64,000 nt of DNA from Crambe crambe (Eukaryota > Porifera > Demospongiae > Poecilosclerida > Crambeidae). The stretch is taken from positions 5,270,001-5,334,000 of the forward strand of contig OZ004582.1 of the NCBI GenBank assembly GCA_963924555.1, written 5' to 3'. Positions 9,491 through 17,526 of this stretch are shown here, one piece after another (the first letter of the stretch is position 1; each line of letters begins with the position of its first letter). The translations under genes were made by a program, and so were the position numbers. The notes under the pieces are model-generated. The model was not told the origin of the DNA. It saw only the letters and a program-made list of their open reading frames with translations, and did no database searches.

Positions 9491-9538
9491 AGGGACCCCG
9501 GTTGTGTGCACAAGTAGAAGTATATCCAAATGATGTAA
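9491..9538 (+). repeat. Left terminal inverted repeat of the 8-kb transposon
   Basis: It pairs with 17479-17526 read on the other strand, with six mismatches over 48 positions. The inner 25 bases, from CACAAGTAGAAG inward, are nearly identical in the two arms. Confidence 0.85.
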
Positions 9539-9610
9539 TGCATAATGATGGAATGCATAATGATGTAATACATAATGATGTAATGCATAATGATGTAATG
9601 CATAATAACA
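9531..9610. repeat. 15-bp AATGATGTAATGCAT tandem repeat
   Basis: About five imperfect copies of a 15-base unit directly follow the left terminal repeat. The repeat is short and degenerate, with GGAATG and ATACAT variants. Confidence 0.8.
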
Positions 9611-9779
9611 TGTAATTTCGTGTATATGATGATAATGAGTATAATTATGCTATAATAGCTACATGTAGTTTATTAGAGGTAGTGAGTATTACAGCAGACA
9701 GTAAGACTGCATGACATAGGCAGTATAAATAAATACTTGCTGACAGTAGGACAGTATGACACATTAATATGTAGCTAGA

Positions 9780-10760
9780 CAGTTGGACTTGTAGACAGTG
9801 GGACAGTACACAGTGGACACTTGGGACAGTAAGACACTGGGACAGCTAGTAGCTATTACATGCAGACAGTGGGACAGTAAGACAGTGTTAAAGACTGGGA
9901 CAGCTAGTATTACATGCAGACAGTGGGACAGTAAGACAGTGTTTAAAGACAGTATTACATGCAGACAAATAAGACAGTGTTAAAGACTGGACAGCTAGTA
10001 TTACATGCAGACAGTGGGACAGTAAGACAGTGTTGAAGACTGGACAGCTAGTATTACATGCAGACAGTGGGACAGTAAGACAGTGTTTAAAGACAGTATT
10101 ACATGCAGACAAATAAGACAGTGTTGAAGACTGGACAGCTAGTATTACATGCAGACAGTGGGACAGTAAGACAGTGTTGAAGACTGGACAGCTAGTATTA
10201 CATGCAGACAGTGGGACAGTAAGACAGTGTTGAAGACTGGACAGCTAGTATTACATGCAGACAGTGGGACAGTAAGACAGTGTTGAAGACTGGACAGCTA
10301 GTATTACATGCAGACAGTGGGACAAGACAGTGTTGAAGACTGGACAGCTAGTATTACATGCAGACAGTGGGACAGTAAGACAGTGTTGAAGACTGGACAG
10401 CTAGTATTATATGCAGACAGTGGGACAGTAAGACAGTGTTGAAGACTGGACAGCTAGTATTACATGCAGACAGTGGGACAGTAAGACAGTGTTGAAGACT
10501 GGACAGCTAGTATTACATGCAGACAGTGGGACAAGACAGTGTTGAAGACTGGACAGCTAGTATTACATGCAGACAGTGGGACAGTAAGACAGTGTTGAAG
10601 ACTGGACAGCTAGTATTATATGCAGACAGTGGGACAGTAAGACAGTGTTGAAGACTGGACAGCTAGTAGCTATTAGTGGGACAGCAAGACAGTGTTAATG
10701 ACAATAATTACATCAAACAGTGGGACAGTAGCTATATAGCTAGCTAAGACAGTGGGACAG
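9780..10760. repeat. 53-bp subterminal minisatellite, left arm
   Basis: The unit contains GACAGCTAGTATTACATGC, GTGGGACAGTAAGACAG and TGTTGAAGACTG. It is repeated about 15 times, with some units shortened or fused. It lies just inside the left terminal repeat of the 8-kb transposon. Its GGACAGTAAGAC core reappears inverted, with one base missing, in the right arm. Subterminal arrays of this kind are known transposase-binding regions in several DNA transposon families; that role is inferred here. Confidence 0.9.
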
Positions 10761-10930
10761 TAAGACAGTAGCTAATGAGCACATGGTGTAGTTAGCTAAG
10801 CACATGGTGTAAGATTTCATGAAGTCAAGGTAACTATAGCTAGCTAACTAGCTACTTAGTTATAAGAGGATCTATTGTTAGCTCAGCTATATCTAACTAA
10901 TGTTGCCCATCTTGCTTGGCTAATACAGGT

Positions 10931-13108
10931 ATGATGGCTAGCCCCCCTGGATTAAAGCGACAGCGTCTACTTATGGGCCCATCAATTAATGTGTCCCCAA
11001 CTCATGCCCAGGAAGTCTCTCAAGCAGCTCAAAATTCTCCTTTCCCTTGGAAAGATGCTGTACCTGAGGAGATATCCAACTGGTTTGAGATGTACGCTAA
11101 GTCGAGAAACACCCTTCCTGAGTTCATTTTCACTGCAGCACTTACCACTGTAGCTGCTCTTATGGGTCCTAAAGTATATGTGAGGCTACGTAAGGAATAT
11201 CCTGAACCTGTAAATCTTTTCACAATATGTATGGCCGAACCTGGTGCAGGGAAAAGTCAAGCATTTAGGATGTCAATTATTGATCCTATAATGTCACTGG
11301 GATCCCCTTTAAGTAACATTTTAGTTGATGAATATACCCGTAGAGGACTGTTTAGGCACCTACAACAGAATTCTGGGCGGGGACTGCTTGCTTATGAAGA
11401 GCTTACTTCCTTTTTTGACCAAGTACACCGAAGACAGCTAGAAGGTAGTGGAGAAAGGCAAATGTTTTGCCGTCTTTATGATTCTGGCAGATGGACAAGC
11501 AGTATTGGTACATTTAATTGTTTTCATATACTGTAGCTATCACTTGCTGTTCTACATCAAAATTCTGTAGTGAACATAGCTATGAAGTTATGGATTTTGT
11601 TTGCAGGAACTCTTAACAAGGAAGGATCTAAAGAAGAAGTTAATGAGGCCTGCATTTGCATCTGTGGGTTTCTACAGCCTGGACCTTTTGTTCAGAGAAT
11701 CTTGCCTACACTGCTTGAGTCTAATGATGGCTTTACTGATCGTCTACTGTTATGCTCACCACATCCAAAACTCCTACTGGAGAGAGAAGTGGAAGAGTGG
11801 TGTGAAAAAATGCGTGCCCAGCAACTTGAAAACCTGTGCCAACCATATGCACTCATTGCTGAAGTTCACCATGATCTTGACTCTCCATTATATTACGAGT
11901 ATAATAGTGCAGCAAAAGAGGTGTGCTTTTCCTTCTCGGATGAGATGACCACTATTATGAATGATCAGTGGCAATCTGGGAAAAGCACCCATGGTAATGT
12001 CTCAAAGGATAAACGAACTATGATCAGGTAACTTACTGATCTCCATGCATTGATCCCTGGCACTGTGTGTAAACGTGTGTGGGCATGGCACATGTAACCA
12101 ATGGTTTTGTGGTTTGTATTAATTATCACCAGAGGAAGGCTGTTAACCATTTCAGTACAAACCAACCTGAAATCCAGTGGTGTCTACATACTTATTTCAT
12201 CCCCAGCCATGATAATGTGTTTCTGCCTCCCAGTTAGTCTTTCCTTCAAGTCTTGGAGTATTCTATGTAGATAGAAATGCAATATTATTATTCATTTATA
12301 GATTGAGTGGAGTTCTGCATGTATTGTACTATGTTATGAAAGAGTGCTTCAAAGAAGGATCATCAAGGGAAGGAGCTGAGCCAGAAAAATTTACCATACC
12401 TCTTATTATTCCTGAAAATGTTGCAAGGATGGCAGTCCACTTAACAGAGTATTATCAGAGTCAAAGGATGGCTTATGAGAAGGTAAGTATAGTATTGTTA
12501 GTCCCATGGTGTATTGTTCTAACTGCATGGTCTGGGTTGTTATGTAATTTATAGTGTGTAACTTATAGTGTATAATGTAGCTATGTTACTACATGTGGAA
12601 ATTTTCCCTTCAACAAGTGTTGATATACAATATCATGTGTAAACCAGTGAGAAACCATGCATGCAATAAATTAATCTTATTTTAGGGAATTGAAGCTGCT
12701 TCAAATCAAGCCATTGAACAGGAAGCACAGGCCAAAAGTCCGGAAACCCATATACTGCTGAGTAAGGGGCCATTTTGTACACCAAGAAGTGTTATTAAAA
12801 ACATGACAACAAAAGTTCGTCCCAAACTAGATGAAATTGCTGATTATATGAAAAAACTTGATGATCGCCACATTGGTACCTTTGTGAATATAAATCAAAA
12901 GGAACGAGCCTATTTCAAGCTACTTCCAGAAGATGATCATAAAGAAAGTATCTGCAGTATAATTGGATCAAGATGGGAGGAGTATATTTCTAATTTTAAA
13001 AAAATTGATACTAAATACATCACGTTAACCCAATTTAATAGGCTTTTGGCCTCCTCTCCATATTCCACTGAAGAAATGGCTCAGTATGAAATATATCCCA
13101 GGAAATAA
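10931..13108 (+). CDS. DUF3987-type P-loop ATPase encoded by the transposon
   Basis: Four exons (10931-11507, 11607-12027, 12302-12482, 12686-13108) join in phase to encode 533 residues with no internal stop. A Walker A motif, AEPGAGKSQA, lies at about residues 102-111. An acidic motif, LLAYEE, lies near 152-157. GFTDRLLL near 235-242 has a possible arginine finger. The arrangement (an N-terminal helical segment with NLFTICMAEPGAGKS, then a conserved R in DR[LF]L) fits the DUF3987 family. That family is known mainly from phages, plasmids and mobile elements as primase- or helicase-associated ATPases. The start was taken at the first ATG after a possible acceptor at 10928, so a 5' untranslated exon is possible. 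It converges with the transposase gene. Its role in transposition is unknown; DNA remodelling or replication is an inference. Confidence 0.75.
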
Positions 13109-13239
13109 TTACGTACATGTACTAATCTCCAATCCGATCTACTCACATAGCTACAAAGAATTATAGCATAAGCCTCCAAAACTCTAGGCTGTATGTGGTA
13201 CATCATTTTTATAGCATATAATTATACGTATTATAGTTG

Positions 13240-16200
13240 TTATTGGGTTTGACGTTGATATACTATTTTACTTTTAAAGGATAGTTTCCTGGAAAGTTTT
13301 TGTATTTCGTCTTGTGTTCGTTCAAATAATGCGAAGTCAAGTCTGAGTTCTTTAGTTATGGTAAAAATTGCGCAGTATATCTGATATAGCTTAGAAATAT
13401 CTAGACTCTGAATATCTTCAGAGCAGAAGTTTTTTCTTTCCTCTTCCAGTAAATAATGTATAATGCTGCTTACTAACAAAAATTCCATGTTGCTGAATCC
13501 ACCAGTTGTGACTGGTTCTCCCATATCTCTCATGAATGTTAAAGATTTCTTCCCTTTGAGTGGAATAGATTGGCCTTGATGTGGTTCCCGTTTACGTTTC
13601 TGGCCTACTTTTGGGGGCTCATTCTTTGGCTTTATTCCAAAAGGGTTAGTACAATTTTTACATTTGCACACTTCTAGACAAGCCAGTTTTTCATTGTAGC
13701 AAGGGCAGCGGCAAGTATATTGAGTGATATCGAAGGAGCATGGCATCCCCTTCACTGATTTCCTGCCACAGTTACAACCTTTAGATTGCTGTTTTTTACT
13801 GCTACATTGAGTCTCCTCTGTTGGAGTAGTACTTTCTTGCACGATCGTATCTGTTTGAACTGCAGGCACAGCAGCACTGTAATGCCCACTTCCAAACTGA
13901 TTGTATGCTAGAAATATTGGATCCATGTTCAATGTTGGAGAATGAGTAGGATGTTGAATAACCACAGGCATATTCTTCACAGATGTAAACACCACAATAG
14001 GAGCCTTCAATATGTTACTAATTGCAGCTATTACAAGGTCTCCAACATTTGATGCAAATTCACCACTATGGAGAAAATCACTGGCTTGTTCTTGTAGTTG
14101 GTTGCCAGTCATAAATTCCTTGTATTCATTAGAATACTCACCAAGCCATTCTGCTACAATCAAACTTCTCAATGTGGTAATTATCATATCAAATGGATTC
14201 TTGATATCAATTCCACAGCACTGTTGTAAAAATTTTCCTAGAATCATATTTCCATTGTTAACCTGGTACTTCATATTGTGTATAATTGAATATAACAGAC
14301 AGTTACCATCTTTAGGGGCTGAACTTTTAGAAAATTTCCAAGACTTAAGCACTTGATCAAGCCTTTCTTCGTGTTCCTGAAGTTCCTTATCACAAGTGGT
14401 TGACAATTCCATAGTGATGGGATCAAACAAGGAATTCAATGAAGTTGCCATAAAGGGAAAATGTAGTACATCAATAAAAGCTGTTTCACTCACTTTATTT
14501 ACTGCCACAGAAGTAAAGTACCATGCTAAACTCTTCATCAGGATACCTTTCATATCAGGTATCGATACCAGTAGTTCAGTATGAGATAAATCCAGATCAT
14601 CCTCATCACTAGTCAATTCCACATTACAAGATTGGTTGTCATCATTATCAATGCTAGTTTGTAAATTTTCCTTGGCATTTTCAATAGATATACCATTTAT
14701 TCGCTCATATGCCTCGTGAAAGGTGCACGAACTGATGGTCAGAATATTCGGTACAGAAGTGGATGGCATTGGACTATCTTTGAATCGGAGCCCAAATTTT
14801 TCTGGTGTGATTGCAGTTTCAGCATGCAAAAGTTGGTAAAATTCGATAGAGTTTTGCAATCTCTGCTCTACCCTTGATGCCATTTTCACATTGTGCCTGA
14901 AGAAACATTCTGTAAATAGACCATATGCCAACTCAACTCCATACCTGGAAGCAGACATTATGTTATTCAAGTTCTTGTGTAATTCCTCATTTCTGTTGGT
15001 TCCACGTCCTGGTTTAATCCCTGACAGGCATCCTTTTTTCATGTGTACTCGAATATTTTCTATTTCTTTTAATGCTGACTCATTCATTACTGGTTGCTTA
15101 TTATATTCTGCATCTTTCCATTGTTCCTTAAACTTGTCCAAATTTGATTCCAAAATCTCGGGGGCGGGTGTTATTAGTTTACGATCCTTTCCAAGATCAG
15201 AAGGATCCCTAAAGACTAGCCTCCAGTCATCCATGAAAACTTTCCTCAAAGGATGTTTCTTAGAGACCTTTTCTCCGACCCTTTTAATAGCATGGAAAAG
15301 ATCCAACTTTACTTTTAAATCAAATCCAAATACTTCTTGTAATTTTTTTCGCCATGCACAGCAATTATCTACATAAAATTCTGAAACTTTTTTCTTTTGT
15401 GCTTGGAATCGTCTCTGCAATGCTGTAATTGCATCTCTAACCACATCAAACGCTACTCCAGATGTCAACTTCCAAGTTACTACCTGACCAGATGAATTCA
15501 ATATGCAAAATAGGGCACCATACTGTGTAATCCATCTCCTATCACCACTTCTGGAAATTCCAATGTTAGCTGTACAAAATAGAAAAATTGGCTAGTCCCC
15601 CATTGTTGTACAGTGAACCCTCACTGAACACCTACAGATTATCTAAAATACTGTAGTCCTTTCAGCCTTTATCCCTCATATAGCTACAATAGTTATAGCC
15701 TATAGCTAGTTATACACTGGCTGCTATAATTATCTTACTTGCTGATGCAAAAGTATGATCACAGCTTAGCCACGAGTTTTGATCATCAATGGTAGTGTTT
15801 TGCATAACTTTAATGTAGACATCTTCTTTCTCCCAAAAATCTGCCAAAAAGCAGCTTGATATTGAATGGTTTGACGGCAAAGAGGATGAAAACAATTCTA
15901 ACCATTCTTCCAGTGAAGGAAAAGTATCCATTTTACTTCCTTTCGTTGCTACAAATTTCAATTTCTGGCGATGATACCACCATTGAATCCTTTCAAATAG
16001 AACCTCACGTACTTTATGAATGCTCATTCCAAATGAAATAAGTGAGCATATAAGCTGAATGTGTTCCAAGGTAAATCCAGTAATGTGCCATAATTTGAAA
16101 GGCACAAAACAGGTCGGTATTTCTTTCAAAATACCCGGATGATAACCAACAACTTCATGGTTCTTGGAGCATGCATAAACACGGCATACTAGTAAAGTAA

Positions 16201-16576
16201 TGCCATAAACACCATAAATCTTTCTAGGGTCAGATCGTAGACCTCCCATTCCATTTCTCCAACCTCTTGCATGAAGAGGGATATTTGGCACATTTAACAT
16301 TGTGCACTTTGGACACACTACTTTTATCTTTGGAAATTGCTCCAGAGGGGACCATAAAATTATTGGCGGCATCAAATACATCTCAGGTACCACACAAGTT
16401 TCCATTAATAAGGTCCTAGGACAGTTTTCGAATGTCATAATAGCAGGTGCAGCTGGACATTGATCATCAAAATCTTCACATAGTTTAGCAAGATGAGTAC
16501 ACCAAGAAAGTGGAAGTTTAACAGCTGTGGTCCTGGTCACTAAAGTAAACAAAATGAAGAAGTAGCTGCAACCCAT
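13240..16576 (-). CDS. DDE transposase fused to OTU-like protease and CXC cysteine cluster
   Basis: Two exons on the minus strand, 16576-15739 and 15569-13240, join in phase to give 1055 residues. Residues 1-270 hold a zinc-binding CPKC motif and a helical region. A likely catalytic triad is D273 (CDHTFA), D347 (YVDNCC) and E474 (GTNRNEELHKNLN). Residues about 695-850 look like an OTU cysteine protease, with DGNCLLYS (D700, C703) and GSGHYSAAVP (H842). Residues about 878-919 form a CXC/TSO1-like cluster (CNCGRK ... CKCKNC). The C-terminus is basic, then helical. The start ATG at 16576 may be preceded by another exon, because a possible acceptor lies at about 16544. The superfamily is uncertain: Mutator-like and KDZ-like transposases share some features. 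All recognised catalytic residues are present. Confidence 0.78.
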
Positions 16577-16619
16577 GTTCTTTCAAGTCCTGGAGATCGA
16601 GAGCGCAGAGCTTTTTACA

Positions 16620-17400
16620 CATGCGCACAATCATTGCTGATATGCGCGCGGGATATTAGCTGTCCCAATGTATATGTCCTATTGGTGTCCACTGTCCTAT
16701 GTCTCACTAGCCAGTCACTAGTTACTGTCCCAGAGTCTTATGTCCTTCCTCTAGGACTAGATATATCACTGTCACAGAGTCTTATGTCCTTCCTCTGGGA
16801 CTATAGATGTATCACTGTCACAGAGTCTTATATCCTTGATTACTCCAGCACTAAATGTGTCCCAGAGTCTTATGTCCTCCCTCCAGTAGACTAGATGTAT
16901 CACTGTCCCAGAGTCTTGTCCTCCTTCCAGTATTAGATGTCTCACTGTCACAGAGTCTTATGTCCTCCTCCACTACTAGATGTATCACTGTCCCAGAGTC
17001 TTAGCTATGTCCTCCTCCACTACTAGACGTCTCACTGTCCCAGAGTCTTGTCTCCCTCCAGTAAGATGTATCACTGTCCCAGTCTTATGTCCTCCTTCCA
17101 GTATTAGATGTCTCACTGTCACAGTCTTATGTCCTCCTCCACTATAGATGTATCACTGTCCCAGAGTCTTAGCTATGTCCTAATTAGCTACTCCAGTAGC
17201 TACACTAAATGTATTATGTCCTTGATGTATCACTAGCTGTCCCAGAGTCTTATGTCCTCCCTCCAGTACTAGATGTCTCACTGCATGTCCCAGAGTCTTA
17301 TGTCCTCCTCCACTACTACATGTATCACTAGCTACTAGCATACTGTCCCAGAGTCTTATGTCCTCCCTCCAGTACTTTGTCTTTCATCCGGTAAATATCT
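16620..17400. repeat. Right-arm subterminal minisatellite
   Basis: About 14 imperfect units contain CTGTCCCAGAGTCTTATGTCC followed by a CT-rich spacer and AGATGTATCA. Read on the minus strand, the core is GGACATAAGACTCTGGGACAG, related to the left-arm unit (GGGACAGTAAGACAG). The units vary in length, from about 40 to 60 bases, and are more diverged than those on the left. Confidence 0.85.
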
Positions 17401-17478
17401 GTTCCACTGACCAGAGTAAATGCTTTTACCTATTATATCTACAATAATAATTATATAATTATAATGGGTGTAACTGTA

Positions 17479-17526
17479 TTACGTCATTTGGATATACTTC
17501 TACTTGTGCTCAGAGCCGGGACCCCT
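17479..17526 (-). repeat. Right terminal inverted repeat of the 8-kb transposon
   Basis: It is the reverse complement of 9491-9538 at 42 of 48 positions. The sequence outward of 17526 does not match the left flank. Confidence 0.85.

Follow-up and report, generated by a model that had tools for sequence, protein, structure and literature searches.

A recently mobile two-gene element in the sponge Crambe crambe pairs a DUF3987-type ATPase with a putative DDE transposase carrying an OTU domain

Organization of the element

The stretch of DNA analysed here, referred to as the window, comprises 64,000 nucleotides of Crambe crambe (GCA_963924555.1, contig OZ004582.1, positions 5,270,001–5,334,000; called C3:5270001-5334000). 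It contains an element of 8018 bp, at window positions 9500–17517, with two convergent genes that are both open: gene 1, coding for a DUF3987-type P-loop ATPase, and gene 2, coding for a putative transposase with an OTU domain and a CXC-like cysteine cluster. Gene models were predicted by eye and by script, without transcripts, and together comprise six exons and four introns. They bear out the two intact convergent spliced genes of an earlier note, made from the window sequence, but not the "seven introns and exons" that it had counted. All genome searches covered 143 Mb in 119 contigs, of which those labelled C1, C3, C5, C6, C9, C10, C11, C13, C15, and C17 are mentioned below; L numbers denote individual loci.

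The start of the element, a GG at position 9500, was set by comparing the ends of other copies. Inverted repeats are indeed present where the earlier note had described terminal inverted repeats (TIRs) matching at 42 of 48 positions, and can be read as 52 nt with 87% identity; however, the outermost A and the following 8 bp are flank and target-site duplication (TSD), so that 9 nt had been overcalled on each side. The TSD, GGGACCCC, is nearly palindromic, being almost its own reverse complement, and was therefore mistaken for part of the inverted repeat. Read inwards, the true left TIR begins with GGTT and the right one with GGCT. The inverted subterminal arrays of the earlier note are present as well: the left array consists of 53-bp units (periods of 156 and 209 from 9854), and the right one of 42-bp units at 16724–17171 and 48-bp units at 17225–17333. 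The ends and arrays are:

9492–9499, no strand: left TSD GGGACCCC, identical to 17518–17525; 8-bp TSDs also at the C17 and C1 copies
9500–9542, plus strand: left TIR, beginning GGTTGTG, with 38 of its 43 positions identical to the right end; matching ends in the C17, C1, C9, and C6 copies
9529–9606, plus strand: 15-bp array of 5.2 copies, overlapping the inner TIR (Tandem Repeats Finder)
9694–10781, plus strand: left subterminal region with GACAGTGGGACAGTAAGACAG-type repeats, including the 53-bp array at 9970–10668 (repeat analysis)
16724–17333, minus strand: right subterminal array of 42–48-bp units, inverted relative to the left one (repeat analysis)
17475–17517, minus strand: right TIR, GGCTCTG inwards (end comparison)
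17518–17525, no strand: right TSD GGGACCCC (end comparison)

Copies, insertion sites, and age

Searching the genome with the left end (110 bp) yielded nine places, namely both ends of the window element and of copies on C17 and C1, together with one end each on C6, C9, and C10, the latter two looking like left-end fragments. All three two-ended copies contain both genes, and all three are flanked by perfect 8-bp TSDs of mutually unrelated sequence: the C17 copy twice by AGGATTTC and the C1 copy twice by ACAGAGTG, in addition to GGGACCCC in the window. When the three flank pairs were joined without the element and run against the genome, 43 matches were obtained, the list of which was read by eye. 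The C1 joint is spanned by 23 of them (best 100% over 271 bp) and the C17 joint by 7 (best 98% over 197 bp); none of the 43 spans the window joint, and the window flanks match only themselves. Element-free paralogous sites thus exist for two of the three two-ended copies, and all three such sites that were fetched contain the target 8-mer once. Given these single 8-mers and the TSDs, the unit must have been inserted with duplication of its target.

The copies are nearly identical. Against the window, the C17 copy has 4 substitutions and the C1 copy 5 in the 2441 bp between positions 10800 and 13240, where there is also one 1-bp gap; in the 3401 bp between 13200 and 16600, the substitutions number 3 (C17) and 2 (C1), and the two copies share a 10-bp gap in the intron. 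This amounts to a divergence from the window of ~0.12% over 5.8 kb of gene regions. Compared with each other in two overlapping comparisons, the C17 and C1 copies show 3 differences in 3462 bp and 3 in 5325 bp. Their left arrays are shorter than that of the window by 263 bp (C17) and 278 bp (C1), with 1 and 0 substitutions, respectively. Both genes are open in all three copies, the only stops in the exon matches being those that the window shows too, from read-through into introns. The C6 copy, for which one end was found, also holds both genes, which are decayed, with frame-breaking gaps in each.

The element has therefore spread recently, and the earlier note's proposals of a single mobile unit holding both genes and of recent mobility, consistent with intact copies at ~0.1% divergence in the gene regions, hold up. 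That note had also named TIRs without the genes and genes outside TIRs as observations that would count against such a unit. In this genome, the C9 and C10 fragments do lack the genes, but the full copies and C6 hold both; likewise, gene-1 relics lie outside recognisable elements at C3:2571898 (an older relic) and C3:1539k, but the full copies keep the genes inside. With its TIRs, TSDs of fixed length, element-free sites, transposase-like gene, and several copies, the element would be classified by its sequence as an autonomous class II TIR DNA transposon.

In the C17 copy, some 4 kb of foreign DNA is nested in the right array (L055 and L008, ~6441.3k–6445.6k), with the ends TGTGGTAT...ATACCACA and a duplication of CTCC. 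Elsewhere, fragments of genes 1 and 2 lie 13 kb apart (C3:881088 and C3:894424) and 17 kb apart (C3:2571898 and C3:2589773), possibly as old broken units, and Gypsy-like reverse transcriptase/RNase H frames were seen by eye to adjoin gene-1/gene-2 fragments (L032, 2444–3217; L072, 1–800).

Gene 1

Gene 1 consists of four exons (10931–11507, 11607–12027, 12302–12482, and 12686–13108) separated by three GT-AG introns:

10931–13108, stop included, plus strand: gene 1, DUF3987 P-loop ATPase, 533 amino acids (splice model, Pfam, PHROG)
11234–11257, plus strand: Walker A, AEPGAGKS (assigned by pattern)
11381–11404, plus strand: candidate Walker B, GLLAYEEL

The earlier assignment of its product to the DUF3987-type ATPases is well founded, the match to the Pfam profile (PF13148) scoring 94.1 bits (E=1.3e-26) against a gathering cut-off of 27 bits. 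Among PHROG families, it matches DNA helicase (E=3.5e-15) and DNA primase (E=2.4e-11). Sequence searches of the PDB and of NCBIfam gave no match, and comparison with phages and plasmids gave weak matches in 4 and 1 records, respectively, the best of them (E=1e-4) covering 35% of the query at 25.8% identity. A passage of Kazlauskas et al. 2018 (PMC5862659) predicts that DUF3987 and DUF927 act as helicases in the replication of mobile elements, the reason given there being that they replace known helicases beside primases.

Gene 2

Gene 2 has a single intron, and its product combines the following features:

13240–16576, minus strand: gene 2, transposase-OTU-CXC protein, 1055 amino acids; exons 16576–15739 and 15569–13240 (splice model; open in the C1 and C17 copies)
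16523–16576, minus strand: signal-peptide-like start MGCSYFFILFTLVTRTTA, first 18 residues (similar starts in relatives; putative function)
15749–15763, minus strand: CDHTF, first candidate catalytic Asp, D273 (6 of 6 covering alignment rows)
15358–15372, minus strand: VDNCC, second candidate catalytic Asp, D347 (8 of 8 rows)
15292–15306, minus strand: LDLFH, C/DxxH motif as defined in a passage of PMC10045372 (H372 in all 8 rows and the Asp in all 7 that cover it)
14986–15003, minus strand: GTNRNE, candidate catalytic Glu, E474 (8 of 8 rows)
13879–14313, minus strand: OTU cysteine protease, with D700, C703, and H842 fitting the triad by motif (Pfam OTU 1.8e-7; OTUD3 4bou profile match 2.5e-5)
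13639–13797, minus strand: CXC-like cysteine cluster (MSL2-CXC E=0.0021, below cut-off)

Conservation was assessed in an alignment of eight rows, comprising the window protein and seven relatives from the same genome that share 30–49% identity, some of them fragments. D273, D347, DLFH, and E474 follow one another in the order expected for the C/DxxH transposase clan, with a candidate catalytic spacing of DD74D127E, and the assignment of gene 2 to the DDE transposases, which we consider predicted, is based on these conserved residues and on context. No Pfam transposase family was recovered with the window protein at E<=10, in a search whose HMMER filters drop most weak matches. Two relatives match MULE (PF10551) in the expected region with E=0.0031 and 0.1 (0.011 for one of them in other scans), reaching at most 18.4 bits against a cut-off of 27.6 bits. 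A genome search with MULE returned no gene-2-type locus among the 88 matches listed.

Of the OTU-CXC fusion claimed in the earlier note, the OTU part passes its Pfam cut-off (PF02338, 32.2 bits against 23.3) and contains the motifs DGNC and GHY. The CXC cluster, however, scores 18.6 bits against a cut-off of 26.7 bits; the cysteine pattern is there, and the MSL2 structure 2lua was matched with E=0.2. Viral contigs and prokaryote genomes yielded pattern matches to gene 2, none of which was confirmed.

The signal-peptide-like start is unexpected for a nuclear enzyme. First exons of relatives look alike, with a hydrophobic run followed by small residues and a P-x-x-W-like stretch; they are similar by homology in L058/L061 and L062/L068 and by position in L059. 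A scan for hydrophobic starts at seven more loci gave similar ones at L060, L064, and L067, a doubtful one at L065, unlike ones at L057 and L063, and none at L072, although these starts were chosen by hydropathy and are thus not independent evidence. The same hydropathy is reached by 9.6% of 219 ATG-started frames in the window, and use of a later Met as the start could remove the segment. Targeting to the endoplasmic reticulum (ER) or the nuclear envelope may be one explanation of this start, but we trust none at present.

Relatives of gene 2 and a second ATPase

Searching the genome with gene 2 yielded 48 matches, which merge into 24 loci. One relative is part of a whole unit of 9066 bp (C11:2464086-2473151). 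Each end of this unit carries GGTT, its TIR spans 47 nt at 94%, and its 27-bp tandem arrays repeat each other in inverted orientation. Its flanking 8-mers, CATGAAAA and CATAAAAA, agree at seven of eight positions and form an imperfect TSD. It contains an open transposase frame of 923 amino acids and a divergent second gene in several exon-like open pieces. The product of this second gene has a Walker A motif, GEPDVGKTT, and is an ATPase other than DUF3987; its best Pfam matches, to DUF927 (PF06048, E=0.0013, 18.9 bits against a cut-off of 22.6) and AAA (E=0.0032), each fall short of the cut-off. Among PHROG families, it has a mixture of weak matches, the best to a clamp loader (0.00083).

A genome search with the core of this ATPase yielded ten matches, including the query. 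Six of these, one being the query, lie 1.1–5.0 kb from a gene-2-type locus, where ~0.02 would be expected at random; the other four have no such locus within 500 kb or on their contig. Four of the 24 gene-2-type loci are thus accompanied by DUF3987 (window, C17, C1, and C6) and six by the DUF927-like ATPase. Judged by these similarities, gene 2 is a member of a broader transposase-like lineage, some members of which stand beside a different ATPase.

The orientation of the two genes varies: they are convergent in the window, divergent at C11:2464086, and on the same strand at C10:239114-244415, where the ATPase is DUF927-like. Contig C3, with 9.7 of the 143 Mb, holds more than its share of both families (8 of the 24 gene-2-type loci and 6 of the 14 DUF3987 loci).

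DUF3987 beside KDZ/CxC5-type genes

The 14 DUF3987 loci, merged from 16 matches of the Pfam profile in the genome, include three of the window family. At C3:3148012, C13:1199815, and C15:4184523, a match to KDZ or CxC5 at the curated cut-off lies 0.7–1.7 kb away; that at C13:1199815 reaches the cut-off only together with its neighbours. At L042, L044, L045, and L046, the adjoining frame is homologous to the C15 CxC5 frame (blastp E 2e-55 to 7e-28), the Pfam CxC5 profile giving only 0.062 for L044 and no match for L042; L044 and L045 seem to represent a single stretch that was duplicated. No KDZ/CxC5-type gene was found within ~1.5 kb on each side of C3:3988100, C3:1539426, C5:2271636, and C5:2328484. 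The first of these is 94–97% like parts of the C3:3148k unit, whose transposase part lies outside the compared stretch.

Profile comparison (hhalign) of gene 2 with the local CxC5 group and with one local KDZ sequence revealed no similarity above 8 shuffles each. By sequence comparison, then, DUF3987 accompanies two apparent transposase lineages without a recognisable relation to each other, and two lineages would therefore carry ATPases of replicative type.

Several observations on these loci may be added. The DUF3987 pairs L044/L048 (C5:2271k-2279k) and L045/L049 (C5:2328k-2336k) show the same spacing and lie 56.8 kb apart, which suggests a duplicated C5 segment. The C3:3148k locus (L034/L081, C3:3146512-3153600) comprises divergent DUF3987 and KDZ genes with repeated units on both sides, as seen by eye, and has a second copy at C3:3988100; a search for TIRs of this unit found none. 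In the KDZ-linked DUF3987 proteins (L034 and L035), KKGEKKTAAL replaces the standard Walker A, so that they may not bind ATP conventionally.

Discussion

We consider it probable that the element is an autonomous, recently active DDE transposon, with gene 2 as its transposase and gene 1 as a helicase-type partner in transposition. The gene 2 product would bind the element at its TIRs, with their GGYT ends, and at the inverted subterminal arrays, excise it, and join it to its target with an 8-bp stagger. The gene 1 product, of the type of phage and plasmid replicative helicases, would be a real partner in this process, its likeliest task being to unwind or remodel DNA in the synaptic or strand-transfer complex or during its repair. 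The OTU domain probably strips ubiquitin off repair factors or off the transposase itself. Since part of the transposase lineage stands beside a different P-loop ATPase, the slot for a helicase-like ATPase next to the transposase may have been kept and its occupant exchanged. That one branch has DUF3987 and others a DUF927-like ATPase would echo the prokaryotic elements described in a passage of the primase paper (PMC5862659).

Several points weigh against this reading. Neither ATPase was detected within 5 kb of 14 of the 24 gene-2-type loci, searched with one query each and including many relics and fragments. For one relative with an open frame (L060/L070, C11:2490755), the nearest ATPase match is 5 kb off, and none was found in the flanking DNA examined. 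The matches of the relatives' partner ATPase to DUF927 and AAA do not reach the cut-offs, and DUF3987 could be a passenger. A single-sequence AlphaFold model of gene 2 exon 2 had a mean predicted local distance difference test (pLDDT) score of 35.9 and was not used, so that both the DDE fold and the proposed mechanism are predictions from sequence.

Among the alternatives, the one that fares best, though we still regard it as somewhat unlikely, is that the element belongs to a known superfamily (MuDR, hAT, KDZ, Ginger1, or Academ) as an ordinary member and has acquired extra domains. The D-D-(DxxH)-E layout is that of MuDR/MULE and of the C/DxxH clan in general (Dada, hAT, Kolobok, MuDR, P), and the MULE matches of the two relatives fall in the right region. 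However, the window protein stays under all cut-offs, and the second gene of the element codes for a helicase-type ATPase. The KDZ elements resemble it in three respects: Zisupton has an 8-bp TSD, according to a passage of PMC12730594, KDZ/CxC5-type genes of this genome also adjoin DUF3987, and the C3:3148k KDZ unit has its repeated units on both sides. Gene 2, in contrast, has no match to PF18758 and did no better than shuffles in the profile comparison with the CxC5 group and one KDZ sequence; membership in KDZ is accordingly not supported by the sequence.

Ginger1 and Academ each share one trait with the element. The helicase of AcademH belongs to superfamily II and thus differs from DUF3987. 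According to passages of PMC10045372, AcademH is a eukaryotic DDE transposon encoding a helicase, and TSDs measure 3–4 bp for AcademX, 9–10 bp for AcademH, and 4 bp for Ginger1, none of which fits the 8 bp found here. Ginger1 carries an OTU or Ulp1 protease at the C-terminus of a transposase with a Gypsy-type integrase (passage of PMC2836005); the OTU protease is shared, but no integrase was found in our Pfam scan.

Gene 1 might instead be cargo that is passed between transposon lineages and aids persistence, for example by helping the DNA of the element to be replicated or to evade repair, while being dispensable for moving. The occurrence of DUF3987 next to KDZ/CxC5-type genes and the many gene-2-type loci without either ATPase are in line with this, and there is a precedent in the TET/JBP accessory genes, which pass between transposon lineages in fungi (passage of PMC12730594). 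We nevertheless find it unlikely, as all three recent copies have an open gene 1, and passive cargo would not predict the other ATPase beside 6 of the 20 remaining gene-2-type loci.

The possibility that gene 1 is an ATPase for target choice or transposase activation, and not a helicase, seems to us equally unlikely. MuB, TnsC, and IstB are such ATPases of bacterial DDE transposases. The element shares with Mu, Tn7, and IS21 the layout of a DDE transposase and a separate P-loop ATPase, which is a likeness of layout, and the weak AAA match of the relatives' partner ATPase would fit as well; however, in Pfam and PHROG, gene 1 matches DUF3987 and helicase/primase families. Still less probable is replicative, copy-out transposition, in which gene 1 would drive replication of the element and the donor copy would stay, since, although DUF3987 is a predicted replicative helicase (passage of PMC5862659), the Pfam scan of the two genes found no primase or polymerase domain and the sequence does not separate copy-out from cut-and-paste, the TSDs fitting both.

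To our knowledge, helicases of phage or plasmid type have not been described in eukaryotic cut-and-paste transposons; helicases known from transposons include those of Academ and Helitron elements. The DUF3987 literature that was covered, as far as its titles indicate, concerns bacteria or phages, with no title on a eukaryotic transposon. The statement of the earlier note that no described superfamily has this pair of genes is thus not contradicted by the literature to which the comparison was confined, Repbase/Dfam and other animal genomes being outside it, and priority is unproven. As a speculation to which we give little weight, the elements might form an unnamed eukaryotic superfamily with GGYT ends, 8-bp TSDs, inverted arrays, and a transposase made up of signal-like segment, Cys cluster, DD-DxxH-E, OTU, and CXC. 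Its helicase would be obligate yet exchangeable (DUF3987 or DUF927-like), and its transposase would pass via or reside on the ER or nuclear-envelope membrane before reaching chromatin, with OTU shielding it from degradation.

If transposition by gene 2 in our preferred reading does need the ATPase, the elements would correspond, among eukaryotes, to the bacterial systems that consist of a transposase plus an ATPase. The occurrence of differing ATPases beside one transposase lineage makes the question of their partnership testable, and three near-identical copies with both genes open, together with element-free sites, provide a well-defined starting point.

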